Shown piece after piece: positions 1 through 4,618 of a stretch of DNA of 5,535 bases. A model generated the notes under the pieces. The model ran no database searches, was not told the DNA's origin, and saw only the letters and a list, made by a program, of their open reading frames with translations. The first letter of the stretch is position 1, and each line of letters begins with the position of its first letter. A program made the translations under genes and the position numbers. Location of the stretch: positions 1,848,653 through 1,854,187 of the forward strand of contig CP059256.1 in NCBI GenBank assembly GCA_013693755.1, read 5' to 3'. This DNA comes from Burkholderiaceae bacterium (GTDB lineage Bacteria > Pseudomonadota > Gammaproteobacteria > Burkholderiales > Burkholderiaceae_C).

Positions 1-339
1 GACGCCCGCGAAGACCTGATCCGCCGCATGCTGCGCGCCTATGAGCGCTCCAGCCTCACCCCGGCGGCATACCGGGAGCGCGTGCGCAGCCGCGACGAAG
101 CCGCCAACGCCTTGCTCGACGAAGCGCTCAGCCGCGCGGCCCAGCGCGCTGCGAGCGACGAAGCCCTGCTGCGGGCCTTCGAAGCCAGCGGTGCCTCGCC
201 AGGCGCGTTCGCCCAGACCTACGGCCTGCCGGTGGGCAGCGTGCGCGAAGCCCTGGCGCGCGCGGCACAACCGTCAACGCCAGGACGCGCCCGCGGCCGA
301 CGCGCGCGAAGCCGCCGTCTGAGGCTCAGGCAACGCTGA
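1..339 (+). CDS. 3' end of an unrecognised alpha-helical protein (5' end outside window)
   Basis: The frame is open from the first base and stops with TGA at 337-339; an internal ATG at 28 exists, but the open frame upstream suggests the true start lies outside. The visible ~112 residues are rich in Ala, Arg, Glu and Leu, look helical, and carry no motif I recognise. Up to about base 265 the codons have the G/C third bases expected here. After that this frame becomes Arg-rich with many A-ending codons, while the +2 frame (281-322, ending DAREAAV then TGA at 320-322) has better codon use. A frameshift around 262-280 is therefore likely, and the natural stop is probably 320-322. The frame-1 stop at 337-339 lies inside the mobile element that starts at 329, so the element supplies it. 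Function unknown. Confidence 0.55.
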   Translation, partial: DAREDLIRRMLRAYERSSLTPAAYRERVRSRDEAANALLDEALSRAAQRAASDEALLRAFEASGASPGAFAQTYGLPVGSVREALARAAQPSTPGRARGRRARSRRLRLRQR

Positions 340-489
340 ACAAGTCCCTCGCGCGCCGCGCATCCTGGCGGCGGGCGGGCTACCTCAAAGCAAATGCTCG
401 CCATAGCCCCCGCTATGTCTGCGCTTTGCGCCTCGCACCCCATCCCGCGGCCAGGCGCGCGCCATCGCGGGGACTTATTCAGCGTTGCC
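329..489 (+). mobile_element. 161-bp palindromic MITE-like element, copy 1
   Basis: Seen directly: terminal inverted repeats at 329-348 (GGCAACGCTGAACAAGTCCC) and 470-489, matching in 19 of 20 positions. A perfect 4-bp direct repeat CTCA flanks the element at 325-328 and 490-493. A central imperfect hairpin pairs 400-407 with 412-419 (one mismatch) and GCAAA at 390-394 with TTTGC at 425-429. The element has the same length as the copy at 3597-3757, in the same orientation, with about 16 differences in 161 bases. It encodes no credible protein and no transposase, so it would depend on one supplied in trans. The 4-bp duplication fits an IS5-type parent, but the parent is not in the window and this assignment is inference. 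It lies between the partial gene at 1-339 and the peroxidase gene, and may act as a bidirectional terminator. Confidence 0.88.
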
Positions 490-490
490 C

Positions 491-976
491 TCAGGCCGCC
501 AGCGCCGCCTCGATGTCCTTCTCCAGGGCGCGCGGCTCGTCGGTCGGCGCATAGCGGCGGATCACCTGCCCGTCCTTGCCCACCAGAAACTTGGTGAAGT
601 TCCATTTGATCGCCTGGGTGCCCAGCAGACCCGGCGCCTCCTTCGTCAGCCAGCGAAACAGCGCGTGCGCGCCTGCCCCGTTGACCTCCACCTTCGACAT
701 CATCGGGAAGCTCACCCCGTAGTTGCGCTGGCAGAAGGTGGCGATCTCCGAATCGCTGCCCGGGTCCTGTCCGCCGAACTGGTTGCACGGAAAACCCAGC
801 ACCACCAGGCCGCGCGCGGCCCACTGTTCGTGCAGGGCCTGCAGGCCGGCCAGTTGCGGCGTGAAACCGCAGGCGCTCGCGGTGTTGACGATCAGCAACA
901 CCTTGCCGCGGAAACGCGACAGCGCAACCGGCTGTCCGCTGATGTCCTGGGCTTCGAAGTCATAGACGGTGGTCAT
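491..976 (-). CDS. Glutathione peroxidase-family (thioredoxin/glutathione-dependent) peroxidase
   Basis: The 161-residue product has a thioredoxin-like fold and reduces hydrogen peroxide or organic hydroperoxides with thiols; it is probably cytoplasmic, as no signal peptide is seen. Family signatures are clear: NTASACGFTPQ with the peroxidatic Cys at residue 36, FPCNQFGGQ with the active-site Gln at 70, and the WNFTKF block with Trp125 and Asn126, completing the catalytic tetrad. Cys82 in FCQRNYGVSFP sits where the resolving Cys of thioredoxin-dependent members lies, so thioredoxin may be the true reductant (inference). The start ATG at 974-976 is preferred over one at 1051 because an AGGAGA ribosome site lies 8 bases upstream and the family begins just before this point. 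Length is normal for compact bacterial members (gpx/btuE-like). The TGA stop falls within the target duplication of mobile element copy 1. The frame is intact. Confidence 0.95.
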   Translation of the reverse strand: MTTVYDFEAQDISGQPVALSRFRGKVLLIVNTASACGFTPQLAGLQALHEQWAARGLVVLGFPCNQFGGQDPGSDSEIATFCQRNYGVSFPMMSKVEVNGAGAHALFRWLTKEAPGLLGTQAIKWNFTKFLVGKDGQVIRRYAPTDEPRALEKDIEAALAA

Positions 977-1140
977 GGTCGAGGTCTCCTGTGGAAAGCC
1001 GCAGTATGCGGGCCGGCACGTGGCCCTCGCGCGCAAACGGGTTCCCGGCAATAATTCCTACAAATTGATACGTCCGTCGCGCGGGAGGCTGCGATGACGG
1101 CTCCCCTTCCGCAGTTTTGCTGCCCTATCCGCCACCCCTC
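977..1140. promoter_or_regulatory. Divergent intergenic region between the peroxidase gene and gene A
   Basis: This 164-base stretch must hold the promoters for the peroxidase gene (leftward) and gene A (rightward). The only A/T-rich island is at about 1049-1071 (GCAATAATTCCTACAAATTG onward), the best candidate for promoter elements, but I cannot assign convincing -35/-10 boxes. A good GGGAGG ribosome site at 1083-1088 precedes an ATG at 1094, which opens a frame different from gene A and runs to 1390; its codon use is poor and it may be spurious or a short overlapping leader. No regulator operator was recognised. Confidence 0.35.
985..990 (-). promoter_or_regulatory. Ribosome binding site of the peroxidase gene
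   Basis: AGGAGA on the minus strand, 8 bases before the ATG at 974-976. It decides between this start and the in-frame ATG at 1051, whose extra 25 residues are Arg/Ala-rich and unlike the family. Confidence 0.75.
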
Positions 1141-2117
1141 ATGGTTTCCACGCGACCCATCGCCTTGTTCGGCCTGTCTCCCACCGAGCGGGTGCTGCTG
1201 TCCGAGGCCTTGTTCCCCGAGGGCGGCTCGCCCATCCCCGGCGCCGTGCAGGTCGACAGCCCACTCGACGCCTGGCTCGTCATCGCCGACGCCCGCAACG
1301 TCGACGCCCTGCGCACGCTGCAGCACGATGCGCCGCAGGCCAAGGTGCTGCTGCTCGGCACCAGCGACGCGGGCACCGGCTGGCCGGTGATCGCACGGCC
1401 CCTGCGGCTGCATGCCGTCATCGAAGCCGCCAAGCTCATGCTCGTGCATGCCGAGGCCGGCCCGCATGAGATGCCGGCGGACGGCGCGCCGCCCCCGGCA
1501 GCGGCCGCCCCGCAGCCGGTCGCGCCGGAGCCCCCGCGGCCGCCCGAGCCACCGGCCGTACCGCCCGTTCCAGCGCCGCAGCCGGTGCCCGACCCGCACG
1601 ACACCGTGCCCGGTCCCGCCGCGCCATCCGCCCGGCGGTTGTTTGCCCGGGTCATGGCGAAACCACCGGCTTCGAAGACACCCGGGTCGTCACCACCATG
1701 CCCTCGGTCGTCCCCTCCGACTGGGAGGACGACGGCCACGCGCCCGTGCCCGAAGGCTCCACGCTCATCCTCGTGGTCAGCCAGCCCGGCACGGCCACCG
1801 GCGGGCTGCTGCGCATCCTCAAGTCCTCGGGCTACACCACCGAATTCGCCGCCGATCCTGAAGCCGCGCTGCGCCAGATGAGCCGCAAGCGCTATGCCTT
1901 CGTATTCCTCATAGAGGTGTCCCTCGGCCCGGCGGCCATCGCGCTGTGCCGGCGCATCGGCCGCGAAGTCGCGCCGGCCGCACGCCCGTCGCGGGTGATC
2001 GTCATTTCCGACCACCGTCGCTGGTGGCCGCGGCTGCGGGCGTGGCTCGCCGGCTGCGACACCTGGCTGCAAGTGCCGCTGCACCGTGCCTCGCTGCTTG
2101 CCTATCTGCGGCGCTGA
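1141..2117 (+). pseudogene. Gene A: two-domain receiver-like protein, frameshifted as sequenced
   Basis: Joining two frames gives about 325 residues. Residues 1-105 (MVSTRPIALFGLSPTER...) form a receiver-like alpha/beta domain ending WPVIARPLRLHAVIEAAKLM, where the RPL corresponds to the KP motif of response regulators. About 115-165 is a Pro/Ala-rich linker. The C-terminal part is a second receiver-like domain (own entry). The first frame stays open to 1881, but the linker and C-terminal domain read properly in another frame from about 1656, a -1 change around 1640-1658, simplest as loss of one G before GGCGAAACC. The ATG at 1141 lacks a clear ribosome site; it is chosen because it aligns exactly with the start of paralogue gene B (both have Gly-Leu at residues 11-12). 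There is no DNA-binding or enzymatic output domain. It could be an unusual regulator, a decayed gene, or an intact gene with a sequencing error. Role unknown. Confidence 0.6.
1698..2117 (+). CDS. C-terminal pseudo-receiver domain of gene A, as an intact reading frame
   Basis: This is the part of gene A readable without the upstream frame change, from ATG 1698 to TGA 2115-2117 (139 residues); no ribosome site precedes the ATG, so it is unlikely to be an independent gene. The domain runs from about 1764. STLILVVSQ is the first strand, YAFVFLIEVSLG the strand that normally carries the phosphorylated Asp, and RVIVISD the strand with the conserved Ser/Thr. WLAGCDTWLQVP replaces the usual AGADDYLxKP. 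The acidic pair after strand 1 is missing, the phosphoacceptor position is Ile followed by Glu, and the Lys before Pro is Val. By these changes it should not be phosphorylated in the usual way. Confidence 0.6.
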   Translation: MPSVVPSDWEDDGHAPVPEGSTLILVVSQPGTATGGLLRILKSSGYTTEFAADPEAALRQMSRKRYAFVFLIEVSLGPAAIALCRRIGREVAPAARPSRVIVISDHRRWWPRLRAWLAGCDTWLQVPLHRASLLAYLRR

Positions 2118-2291
2118 CCTTCGGGGCGGTGGTCTGGCTGCCCGCCGGCACGCAGCCTCTGCGGTCGAAGTTCGCAGTTTTGCCGACTGCGATGTGTGCC
2201 GCACGCCCGCGGCCGGCTGGTTTGCCCTAAGCTTTCGCGCGTTCTTGACGTCCACCCGGCCGAAAACCCCGTTCAAGCCCTTGCTCGCCCG
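2118..2291 (+). other. Intergenic region between genes A and B
   Basis: The 174 bases between the two paralogues hold no gene. The only structure seen is a perfect 7-bp stem with a 7-base loop at 2172-2192 (TCGCAGT/ACTGCGA); no T-run follows, so it is a poor intrinsic terminator. The string CGCAGTTTTGC at 2173-2183 also occurs at 1110-1120 upstream of gene A. TTGACG near 2246 resembles a -35 box but has no matching -10. No Shine-Dalgarno sequence precedes the ATG at 2292, as in gene A. Confidence 0.4.
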
Positions 2292-2655
2292 ATGAGTGCT
2301 TCCATCCGCATCGCCAGCATCGGTCTGCCACCGCACGAGCGGCAGTGCATCGACGCCTTCGTCGCGCAAGACCGGCGGTACCGCATCACGCTCGACCTCA
2401 AGCGCGCCGACCTCATCATCGTCAATGGCGACGACGCGGCGGCCATGCTCTCGCGTGGATGCCTCGGAACTGCAGGCCGTTCTGCAGGTCGGCACGCCCT
2501 TGCGGGCGTCGCATTGGCCCAGCGTTGAGCGCCCGCTCGACGTCGCCCGCCTCGGCGAAGCCATCCATCGCCTGATGCCGGCTGCCACCGCCTGGTCTGA
2601 CGCACCGCCGGTCAGCACCGCGAGCGCCCAGGAGTCCGTGGCGGCCAGGCCTGCG

Positions 2656-2799
2656 TTCGAGCCCTCGCGCAGCTTCGAGCCCACCCGGCCTTTCGAACCC
2701 ACGCAGACCCTCGAGGCCACGCAAGCCTTCCAGGCCACCCGTCCCACCGAACGGGCGCCCGCATTCGCCGCCACCGAGCCGTTTGCGCCCTTGCGGCGG
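2656..2799 (+). repeat. 18-base coding repeat (hexapeptide FEPTRP-like) in the gene B linker
   Basis: Eight consecutive 18-base units encode FEPSRS, FEPTRP, FEPTQT, LEATQA, FQATRP, TERAPA, FAATEP and FAPLRR. The first three are nearly identical and the later ones diverge. A further FAATKP-FSPSEL pair follows a short gap. The consensus is an aromatic or Leu, then E/Q/A, P/A, Thr, R/Q/E, P/A. Gene A has a Pro/Ala linker at the same place without this repeat. Such units can act as a flexible spacer or as repeated peptide ligands; which applies here is unknown. Confidence 0.8.
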
Positions 2800-3091
2800 G
2801 AAGCGGCCGGCAGCGACATTGCGCCCGCGCCGGATTTCGCGGCGACCAAGCCGTTTTCTCCCTCGGAACTCGAATCGGTCGCCACCGCGACGCTTGCCCC
2901 CAACGCCACGCGCCCATCGACGAGAGCAGCGTGCTGCTGTGGCGCGATGCGCAGCGCAAGGCGGCAGTGGACGTGCCAGCGGCCGAGCCGGTCGTCGCGC
3001 CGGTTCCACCGGGCCGGCTCAAGATCGAGGCGGCGCCGGTCGCTCCAGAGCCGGTGGCCGCGCCGGGCGGGGTCGAAGAGGAAGAGGCAGT

Positions 3092-3568
3092 GACCGTTCC
3101 GCCATCGGCGACCTCGGGGCTGTCGCCGCGCCCAGTGCGGGCGGGGGCGACAGCGTCTCCTCCGAGTTCCCCGACAGTTCCACCTCTCGCGGCCGCGTGC
3201 TGCTCATCGGACACACGCGATTGCTGCAAAGCGCGTTGATGCGCGCGCTCGGCCGCCTGGGCTTCGTCGTCGACCATGCCACAGGCACACTGGCGGCGCT
3301 CGCCCGTATCCAGGTCGAGACCTACGACTTCGTGCTGTTCGACGACGAATCCCTCGGCGTCGACACCCTTGCGAGCTGCCGCGCCCTTCACCGGCACAAC
3401 CGCCGCCATCCCGCGAAGCGCGCACCGCGCATGGTGGTGCTGGCCAAGTCGCGGCCGCGCCTGCGCCGCGCCTTCGCCTGGCTGGCCGGCTGCGATGCCT
3501 GGATGGTGCTGCCCGAGGAAGCGCCGGCCTTGCGCCAGTACCTGCGCAAATCCGCGCCGCGCCGCTGA
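3092..3568 (+). CDS. C-terminal receiver-like domain of gene B, last reading frame
   Basis: From about 3092 the coding frame is the one ending at TGA 3566-3568; no convincing start codon of its own is seen, so it is the tail of gene B. The receiver-like domain begins near 3194 with GRVLLIGH. YDFVLFDDESLGVD retains an Asp (codon at 3341) where response regulators are phosphorylated. MVVLAKS follows, then WLAGCDAWMVLPEEAPALRQYLRK in place of the usual AGADDYLxKP with Lys lost. The acidic residues after strand 1 are absent (IGH). It matches the gene A C-terminus at WLAGCDxW and at the final LxxYLR. Confidence 0.6.
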   Translation, partial: DRSAIGDLGAVAAPSAGGGDSVSSEFPDSSTSRGRVLLIGHTRLLQSALMRALGRLGFVVDHATGTLAALARIQVETYDFVLFDDESLGVDTLASCRALHRHNRRHPAKRAPRMVVLAKSRPRLRRAFAWLAGCDAWMVLPEEAPALRQYLRKSAPRR

Positions 3569-3596
3569 ACCTGGCGTCGCACGCGCAGGCGGTTAG

Positions 3597-3757
3597 GGCA
3601 ACGCTGAACAAGTCCCTCGCGCGCCGCGCATCCCGGCCGCGGGCGGTCTGCTTCGTTGCAAATGCTCGCCATAGCCGCCGCTATGGCTGCGCTTTGCGCC
3701 TCGCATTCCATCCCGCGGCCGCGCGCGCGTCATCGCAGGGACTTATTCAGCGTTGCC
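3597..3757 (+). mobile_element. 161-bp palindromic MITE-like element, copy 2
   Basis: Terminal inverted repeats at 3597-3616 and 3738-3757 are identical to those of copy 1. The perfect 4-bp direct repeat TTAG lies at 3593-3596 and 3758-3761. The central hairpin here is perfect over 8 bp (GCCATAGC 3668-3675 with GCTATGGC 3680-3687, 4-base loop), with GCAAA 3658-3662 pairing with TTTGC 3693-3697. GC-rich subterminal arms (GGCCGCGGG and CCCGCGGCC) add to the palindrome. Because each copy has its own matching duplication, the two inserted independently. It sits between gene B and the convergent EamA gene, whose TAA stop lies in the duplicated target. Confidence 0.9.
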
Positions 3758-4618
3758 TTAGCGGGCGCGCGGCCAGGCGGCCAGCGCCGCCGCCAGCACC
3801 ACCAGCGCACCACCAGTCAGCGTGCGCGCAGAAAGCTCCGCCGCCCCCAGGGCCACCGAGGACAGGCTGGCGAACACCACTTCGGAGAGCATCACCAGCG
3901 CCGTCACCTGTGCCGGCAGGCGCGCCGCACCGTACTGCAGCGCCAGATTGCCCAGCAGGAACGCCGTTGCCAGACCGAAGGCTACCGGCAGCCACTGCGC
4001 CAGGGGTGCTGCCTGCAAGGCCTGCAGCGCCGCCCCGCCTTGCGTGGCCAGCGCGACGACCAGCGCCGTGACGGTCCCGCCGCCGAACATCGCCAGCGCG
4101 CGCGATTCTCCCGGCGTGTCGCGCAGCCGGCGCAGCAGCACGTTGGTCAGCGCAAAACTCAGCCCACCAGCCAGCGCCAGGCCATCGGCCAGGCCCTCGG
4201 GCACGGGCCAGGGCGAGTCAACCGGTTTGAGCACCAGCGTCACACCCGCCAGGGCCAGCACCAGCCGCATGAGGGCGCCGGCGCTGGGGCGTTCGTTCAG
4301 CAGCGCCCACGCCAGCAGCACCGACCACGCCGGCATCAGGTAGAACAGCAACACCACCCGCACCACGTCGCCCACCGTCACCGCCCAGTTGAAGCAGACG
4401 TTGGTCAGACCGGAGGCCAGCGCCAGCCACCACAAGCCCCGGTGCGAACGCATGCCGCGCAGCATCGAAGGCTTCCAGAGCCCCATCGCCAGCAGGACGG
4501 CGCCGTACACGAGAGCGGTGGCCCACAAGGGATGCACGCCGAGATCGTGCAGCGTGCGCAGCGGCCACCAAGAAAGCCCCCAGACCAGGGCATTGAAGGC
4601 CAGCGCCAGCACCGACAA
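3758..4618 (-). CDS. EamA-family (DMT superfamily) permease
   Basis: The 286-residue inner-membrane protein has about ten hydrophobic segments arranged as two EamA repeats. The first repeat ends with RVVLLFYLMPAWSVLLAWAL followed by NER, and the second contains LPAQVTALVMLSEVVFASLS, both characteristic of drug/metabolite transporters. Substrate cannot be read from the sequence; relatives export amino acids, metabolites or drugs. The likely start is TTG at 4616-4618, with GTG at 4610-4612 as an alternative. No ATG lies upstream before the lplT stop at 4643-4645, which is in the same frame and only eight codons away, and no ribosome site is visible. Translation is therefore probably coupled to lplT. 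The TAA stop overlaps the target duplication of mobile element copy 2. The frame is intact and of normal family length. Confidence 0.9.
   Translation of the reverse strand: MSVLALAFNALVWGLSWWPLRTLHDLGVHPLWATALVYGAVLLAMGLWKPSMLRGMRSHRGLWWLALASGLTNVCFNWAVTVGDVVRVVLLFYLMPAWSVLLAWALLNERPSAGALMRLVLALAGVTLVLKPVDSPWPVPEGLADGLALAGGLSFALTNVLLRRLRDTPGESRALAMFGGGTVTALVVALATQGGAALQALQAAPLAQWLPVAFGLATAFLLGNLALQYGAARLPAQVTALVMLSEVVFASLSSVALGAAELSARTLTGGALVVLAAALAAWPRAR

Follow-up and report, generated by a model that had tools for sequence, protein, structure and literature searches.

A 161-bp mini-transposon with IS5-type ends in a Burkholderiaceae genome, and a hairpin core found within elements of other end types

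Two copies of a short palindromic element

The window considered here is the whole 5,535-nucleotide stretch of DNA at positions 1,848,653 to 1,854,187 (forward strand) of contig CP059256.1 from a Burkholderiaceae bacterium (assembly GCA_013693755.1), and it contains two copies of a short palindromic repeat, with the stop codons of a glutathione peroxidase gene and an EamA-type gene lying inside the right-hand target duplications of the copies (Table 1). We consider it likely that these repeats are copies of a multi-copy, non-autonomous miniature inverted-repeat transposable element (MITE) which has IS5-type ends, was mobilised in trans by an IS5-family transposase, and has its core in common with elements carrying other types of ends. 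We refer to this element as family A.

The two copies have the same length and orientation and are identical at 145/161 positions. The 20-bp ends of each match at 19/20 positions (GGCAACGCTGAACAAGTCCC compared with GGCAACGCTGAATAAGTCCC, the reverse complement of the opposite end), and perfect 4-bp target duplications flank both, CTCA/CTCA around copy 1 and TTAG/TTAG around copy 2. The sequence-only reading had described the lengths, orientation, ends, duplications and an identity of about 90%, and in this it was accurate to the base; its interpretation of the repeats as a MITE has also held, as the element is non-coding and multi-copy, with ends like those of an insertion sequence (IS), 4-bp duplications, full-length IS relatives and a clean empty site. 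No Pfam-named protein was found within the element, which carries no transposase gene, and RNA folding z-scores against shuffles were −7.5 for copy 1 (+ strand), −8.85 for copy 2 (+ strand) and −12.2 for copy 2 (− strand).

Table 1. Positions of the family A copies and of their ends, duplications and cores within the window.
Feature	Position	Strand	Basis
MITE copy 1, family A, 161 bp	329..489	+	
MITE copy 2, family A, 161 bp, 145/161 identical to copy 1	3597..3757	+	
Left target duplication CTCA, copy 1	325..328	.	sequence
Right target duplication CTCA, copy 1; contains TGA stop (491-493, − strand) of glutathione peroxidase gene	490..493	.	
Left target duplication TTAG, copy 2	3593..3596	.	sequence
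Right target duplication TTAG, copy 2; contains TAA stop (3758-3760, − strand) of EamA-type gene	3758..3761	.	
Left 20-bp end, copy 1; TGA at 337-339 terminates upstream reading frame 1-339	329..348	+	
Right 20-bp end, copy 1	470..489	−	
Left 20-bp end, copy 2	3597..3616	+	
Right 20-bp end, copy 2	3738..3757	−	
Core hairpin, copy 1	380..440	+	model R1, 63 bits
Core hairpin, copy 2	3648..3708	+	model R1, 82.5 bits

Family A copies, target duplications and empty sites

The host genome is a single contig of 3.28 Mb in which the 20-base end has 71 and 72 matches on the two strands (up to three mismatches), compared with none for the reversed control. At least 57 distinct full copies of 156–162 bp were identified, 40 of them exactly 161 bp and one (L059) flagged as inside a gene. 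Perfect 4-bp duplications flank 24/57 of these copies and read, in the orientation of the core, CTAA (5), TTAG (4), CTAG (2), TTAA (2), TTGA (2) and TGAA (2), with seven singletons; CTAA, TTAG, CTAG or TTAA account for 13 of the 24. IS5-family target duplications are 4 bp long with the consensus YTAR, and it is this type that those 13 show. No plasmid match to the element was found at E ≤ 1e-5 in a set from which the host's near relatives may be excluded.

Filled and empty sites were compared between the host and the congener Tibeticola sediminis at window sites 1 and 2 and at the site of one congener copy. At window site 2 the corresponding congener genes are 14 bp apart with no element between them, and at the position of a congener copy flanked on both sides by TTGA (C1:21778–21938) the host sequence is uninterrupted, giving a clean filled and empty pair.

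Full-length IS5-type partners

Full-length elements with near-identical ends are present in three related genera of the family, one of which is represented by the congener (L181, L182 and L196). These partners are 1167–1182 bp long, their ends match the MITE ends at 14–19/20 positions, and they are flanked by duplications of TTAA, CTAG and TTAG; their transposases are of 320–332 amino acids, and those of L181 and L182 match NCBIfam transpos_IS5_4 (IS5 family). It is through the ends of these three elements that the MITE ends can be recognised as IS5-like terminal inverted repeats, and family A combines IS5-like ends, a family-typical duplication, a short length without a transposase, and filled and empty sites, as is the case for IS5-type MITEs. 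In the congener, the full-length element at L181:770–1945 is followed by TTAA and then by the same end again at 1945 (one mismatch), in tandem.

The host genome, estimated to be 92.66% complete, gave no PF05598 matches and, at E ≤ 1e-20, none to the L181 transposase; 16 DDE_Tnp_1 matches were found there. Because the host has no match to the transposase class of the partners, family A looks to be stranded in this genome, although a transposase in the same genome is not needed for membership of the IS5-type MITEs by descent. A separate host insertion sequence of 12 copies, with a DDE transposase of about 380 amino acids, often adjoins a MITE end with a TGA or TTA in common; this was seen near host positions 1465253, 1478432, 2300144, 3059697, 3144906 and 3161775 (L243, L244, L271, L005, L274 and L256), and the adjoining ends belong to five copies of a second family, B (see below), and to at least two A copies.

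A conserved hairpin core

The core of the element is an asymmetric hairpin of about 47 bp with covarying stems and two bulged T's. We aligned 60 cores, chosen for diversity from 128 distinct sequences and representing several end types (alignment A1; 62 columns with 83% mean identity), in which the bulged T's fall at columns 16 and 42 and column 19 is mismatched with column 44. Paired bases make up 97.3% of cells, compared with 88.6% in shuffles and 29–41% when the structure is slid along the alignment. Ten pairs are altered on both sides, with one being C-G in 29 sequences and G-C in 28, and covariation is 0.228 compared with 0.071 in shuffles (0/500 as high). This covariation, taken with its limited controls, supports the view that the hairpin may be held by selection on folding. 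Its presence in elements of similar size but very different ends, in numerous related bacteria, suggests that it has a function of its own.

A covariance model of the core (R1) gave matches at E ≤ 1e-4 in 181/299 genomes and 102/141 sampled genera of the host's family, and at E ≤ 1e-5 in 34/370 genomes and 29/273 sampled genera of the class, with 32 of these 34 genomes outside the order (copy numbers per genome are lower bounds, as 18 candidates per genome were scored for the family and 14 for the class). A stricter pattern search covered 399 genomes of the order, including 12 family members, and matched four. Paired ends with a duplication were found at 29/54 R1-match loci, 22 of which are at 156–165 bp, compared with 2/162 for random centres; in this test 5/59 loci were too short, 25 had no paired ends with a duplication, and 7/29 positives were inner-arm pairs (93–102 bp). 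Of the 22 full elements, three or more (L298, L340 and L349) are out of register by one or two bases. The ends of these 22 include GGCAACGCTGAAC, GAGCGTGTTTACG, GAGGCTGAGAGGC, TACTCTGCTTCG, CTTCTTGCGATC and GGAACCTCTGAT, and at least seven kinds of ends surround the core when family B is counted.

Several possible identities for the core were rejected. It does not derive from the parent insertion sequences, as it is absent from L181, L182 and L196 at up to nine substitutions, and an R1 search of 46/60 IS-bearing loci (L177–L236) gave a single weak match of 22 bits (L198). It is not a known Rfam family, with no gathering-score matches in the window; relaxing the E-value brought up nothing but microRNA models below threshold, for copy 2 and for one relative. 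Integron attC hairpins have RYYYAAC / GTTRRRY boxes at the base, and the hairpin base seen by eye in the A1 consensus, GTTGCAA...TTTGCGCC, does not fit GTTRRRY.

Other families with the same core

Searching with the element centre gave 73 host sites, of which about 25 belong to family B. Its members are 155–159 bp long with ends GAAGTTGTGAACGAA and 3-bp duplications, mostly TGA, that read as perfect in 14/26 copies as registered (family B counts use 26 of 27 rows, with L254 3770 excluded as a family A copy). Alongside one B end the host retains a truncated IS5-type transposase that belongs to a different subgroup (transpos_IS5_3, DUF4096). A third host family, D, has ends ATCCGGCAGTT, and the core is present in the five copies read.

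The offset of the core does not differ between families A and B, which are of near-equal length (161 and 159 bp in the compared pair), and the alignment of their 5' arms was equalled or beaten by only 1/500 shuffles. The cores of host A have a median identity of 0.872 among themselves, 0.851 with those of host B, 0.83 with those of congener A and 0.766 with those of host D (one of the seven congener cores belongs to family D, and the medians are unchanged without it). Identification of a MITE usually relies on its ends, and the interior is treated as filler; here, unlike usual MITEs, it appears that the interior lasts while the ends differ.

Some individual copies are also of note. One B copy (L377:7000–7154, host genome about 1835999–1836153) lies inside an S-adenosylhomocysteine (SAH) riboswitch, whose aptamer reaches 53.6 bits in the congener, where it is uninterrupted, and 44.1 bits in the host, where the motif encloses the element. 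Inverted pairs of B ends only about 44 bp apart occur at host positions 591248–591291 and 1629262–1629305, and are perhaps deletion products without the core. L272:1550–1870 is a tandem pair of B copies with one TGA in common, and in both the host and the congener a family A element directly adjoins a family D element at its edge YTAR (L244:4363–4623 and L302).

Insertion at the ends of genes

A predicted stop codon lies in the duplication, 0–1 bp from the element edge, in 16/57 family A copies, or 20/57 if stops inside the end are included, compared with 5/53 YTAR sites in non-coding flanks (Fisher p = 0.016; gene calls were home-made from the codon usage of 199 long open reading frames). Stop-codon-tolerant targeting is moderately supported, and insertion at stop codons would explain how a compact genome holds dozens of copies without broken genes. 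In family B, 16/26 copies start where a co-directional gene stops, and no copy starts where an antisense gene does (p = 3e-5). The orientation of family A at stops is split 6 to 13 with no significant bias (p = 0.17), and a sense-strand RNA role for this family is unsupported. At the end of what we take, from its C-terminal sequence, to be an alanine-racemase-like gene, the two genomes carry different elements, the congener an A copy, where the stop is TAG, and the host a B copy, where it is TGA (L247:1752–1910 and L365:9511–9671).

Among the neighbouring genes of the window, the upstream frame at 1–339 is backed by a 46% match to a congener gene. Two related groups of regulator-like reading frames (1141–2117 and 2296–3568) are apparently frameshifted or duplicated; the congener has a single gene in their place, which both match weakly (about 34%).

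Origin of the element and alternative explanations

The evidence from sequence comparison supports well the view that family A is a mini-transposon mobilised in trans. An IS5-family DDE transposase would have bound the 20-bp ends and inserted the element at YTAR-like sites, with insertions at gene ends tolerated because such sites often include a stop codon. The different end types would descend from a single palindromic ancestor of about 160 bp, the ends having diverged with different IS5 subgroups, and the central hairpin would have been retained through this divergence by selection on its folded form. A DNA strand folding at the hairpin might bring the two ends together with a set spacing and thereby promote mobilisation; it is a guess that places this DNA-level role slightly ahead of a role in RNA, at the 3' termini of host transcripts, which is nearly as likely.

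A number of findings weigh against parts of this account. Perfect duplications are lacking in 33/57 host copies of family A, so that the consistent 4-bp duplications expected from the window hold for the 24 perfect cases and not for these imperfect ones. The transposase is present in the congener, but the host yielded no mobiliser, because of which present mobility in the host is unsupported. Both points would suit fixed regulatory or structural repeats that did not come from transposition, which we nonetheless regard as highly improbable given the perfect duplications of both window copies and of 24 copies genome-wide, the clean empty site and the full-length elements with matching ends; the duplications and the empty site led us to reject a repeat that had never moved. 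The empty sites expected in relatives were seen for the congener copy and for window site 2; window site 1 is not cleanly empty in the congener, where an end-stub with four mismatches remains, and because this stub is kept, the insertion probably predates the split of the two species. In addition, 32/54 R1-match loci lack full-length paired ends with a duplication, the shuffle controls on A1 pairing leave relatedness in, the 3' arms of A and B align no better than chance (127/500 shuffles as good), and host A cores resemble those of host B just as much as those of congener A, a pattern that core exchange would also fit.

These last observations bear on how the core came to be shared and what maintains it. 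Unrelated IS5-type MITEs may have repeatedly captured the same core by recombination or template switching in one cell, leaving end types with no common ancestor, and the similarity of host A and host B cores, about that found within A and slightly above that with congener A, as well as the 3' arms, would agree with this. Such capture is rather unlikely, as A and B have the same core offset, near-equal lengths and 5' arms more alike than in nearly all shuffles, and all 22 full elements are 156–165 bp long. Common descent of the end types over their full length is less certain, as the 3' arms do not align beyond chance; we prefer, and infer, a single ancestral element of about 160 bp with diverged ends over core exchange between families. 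Palindrome correction occurs at quasi-palindromes, and the pairing pattern might owe more to such correction in replication, with one arm templating the other, and to recent amplification than to structural selection, as the pairing shuffles leave both relatedness and the correction process in. We judge this improbable: unpaired bulges and invariant columns are retained, features that correction would be likely to remove, and the core is recognisable across many genera. A somewhat stronger competitor, although we would not expect it to prevail, is that the core works as RNA. Transcribed along with the upstream gene, it would act at the 3' end of the mRNA in RNase processing, stability or termination, and would be kept for a benefit to the host or for tolerance of the element. 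The covarying stems and the strictly co-directional placement of family B at stops speak for it, as does the RNase III cleavage of Correia-element transcripts noted in a review (PMC10969869); against it are the lack of a significant orientation bias in family A (13 against 6), the many copies away from gene ends, the lack of an Rfam match, and the TGA target itself, from which the family B bias may stem.

Returning to the preferred account of a trans-mobilised MITE, the element is more than a further IS5-type MITE because the interior is what stays conserved across end types. We tentatively suggest, at somewhat less than an even chance, that in a superfamily of mini-transposons of about 160 bp it is the bulged hairpin, and not the ends, that forms the heritable centre: a portable mobility or regulatory module found in the Burkholderiales and other gammaproteobacterial orders, with the core placed between at least seven kinds of ends and moved by whichever IS5-type transposase is at hand. 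If this is true, a single covariance model brings together elements that would be kept apart in searches based on their ends, what a MITE interior does becomes directly testable, and there is a hint of how mini-transposons switch transposases.

Comparison with known systems

A comparison with the literature by titles and the openings of abstracts gave no description of the element or of a core common to different ends, and an earlier description is possible; the novelty of both is provisional because most subscription papers and ISfinder fall outside this comparison. A MITE has reportedly been found in Polaromonas sp. JS666 of the same bacterial family, and this MITE of a related genus may be the same element. 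Among the systems nearest to ours are members of the IS5 subgroup with a DUF772 and DDE_Tnp_1 transposase (transpos_IS5_4), which have similar ends and 4-bp YTAR-like duplications; the window repeats differ in being 161 bp long, having no transposase, and carrying a hairpin core that is absent from the full-length elements.

The Correia or nemis elements of Neisseria are also short, palindromic and present in many copies, with hairpins in transcripts, but have other ends and another duplication, and a core common to several end types is not described in the passages of the review compared here (PMC10969869). QMITE2 of Coxiella and the repetitive extragenic palindrome (REP)-type sequences resemble the window repeats as intergenic palindromes with a bulged or imperfect hairpin, and the same review names a GTAG motif for the REP-type palindromes (PMC10969869). 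In contrast to these, the window hairpin has no GTAG motif at its base and is set within IS5-type ends and target duplications.

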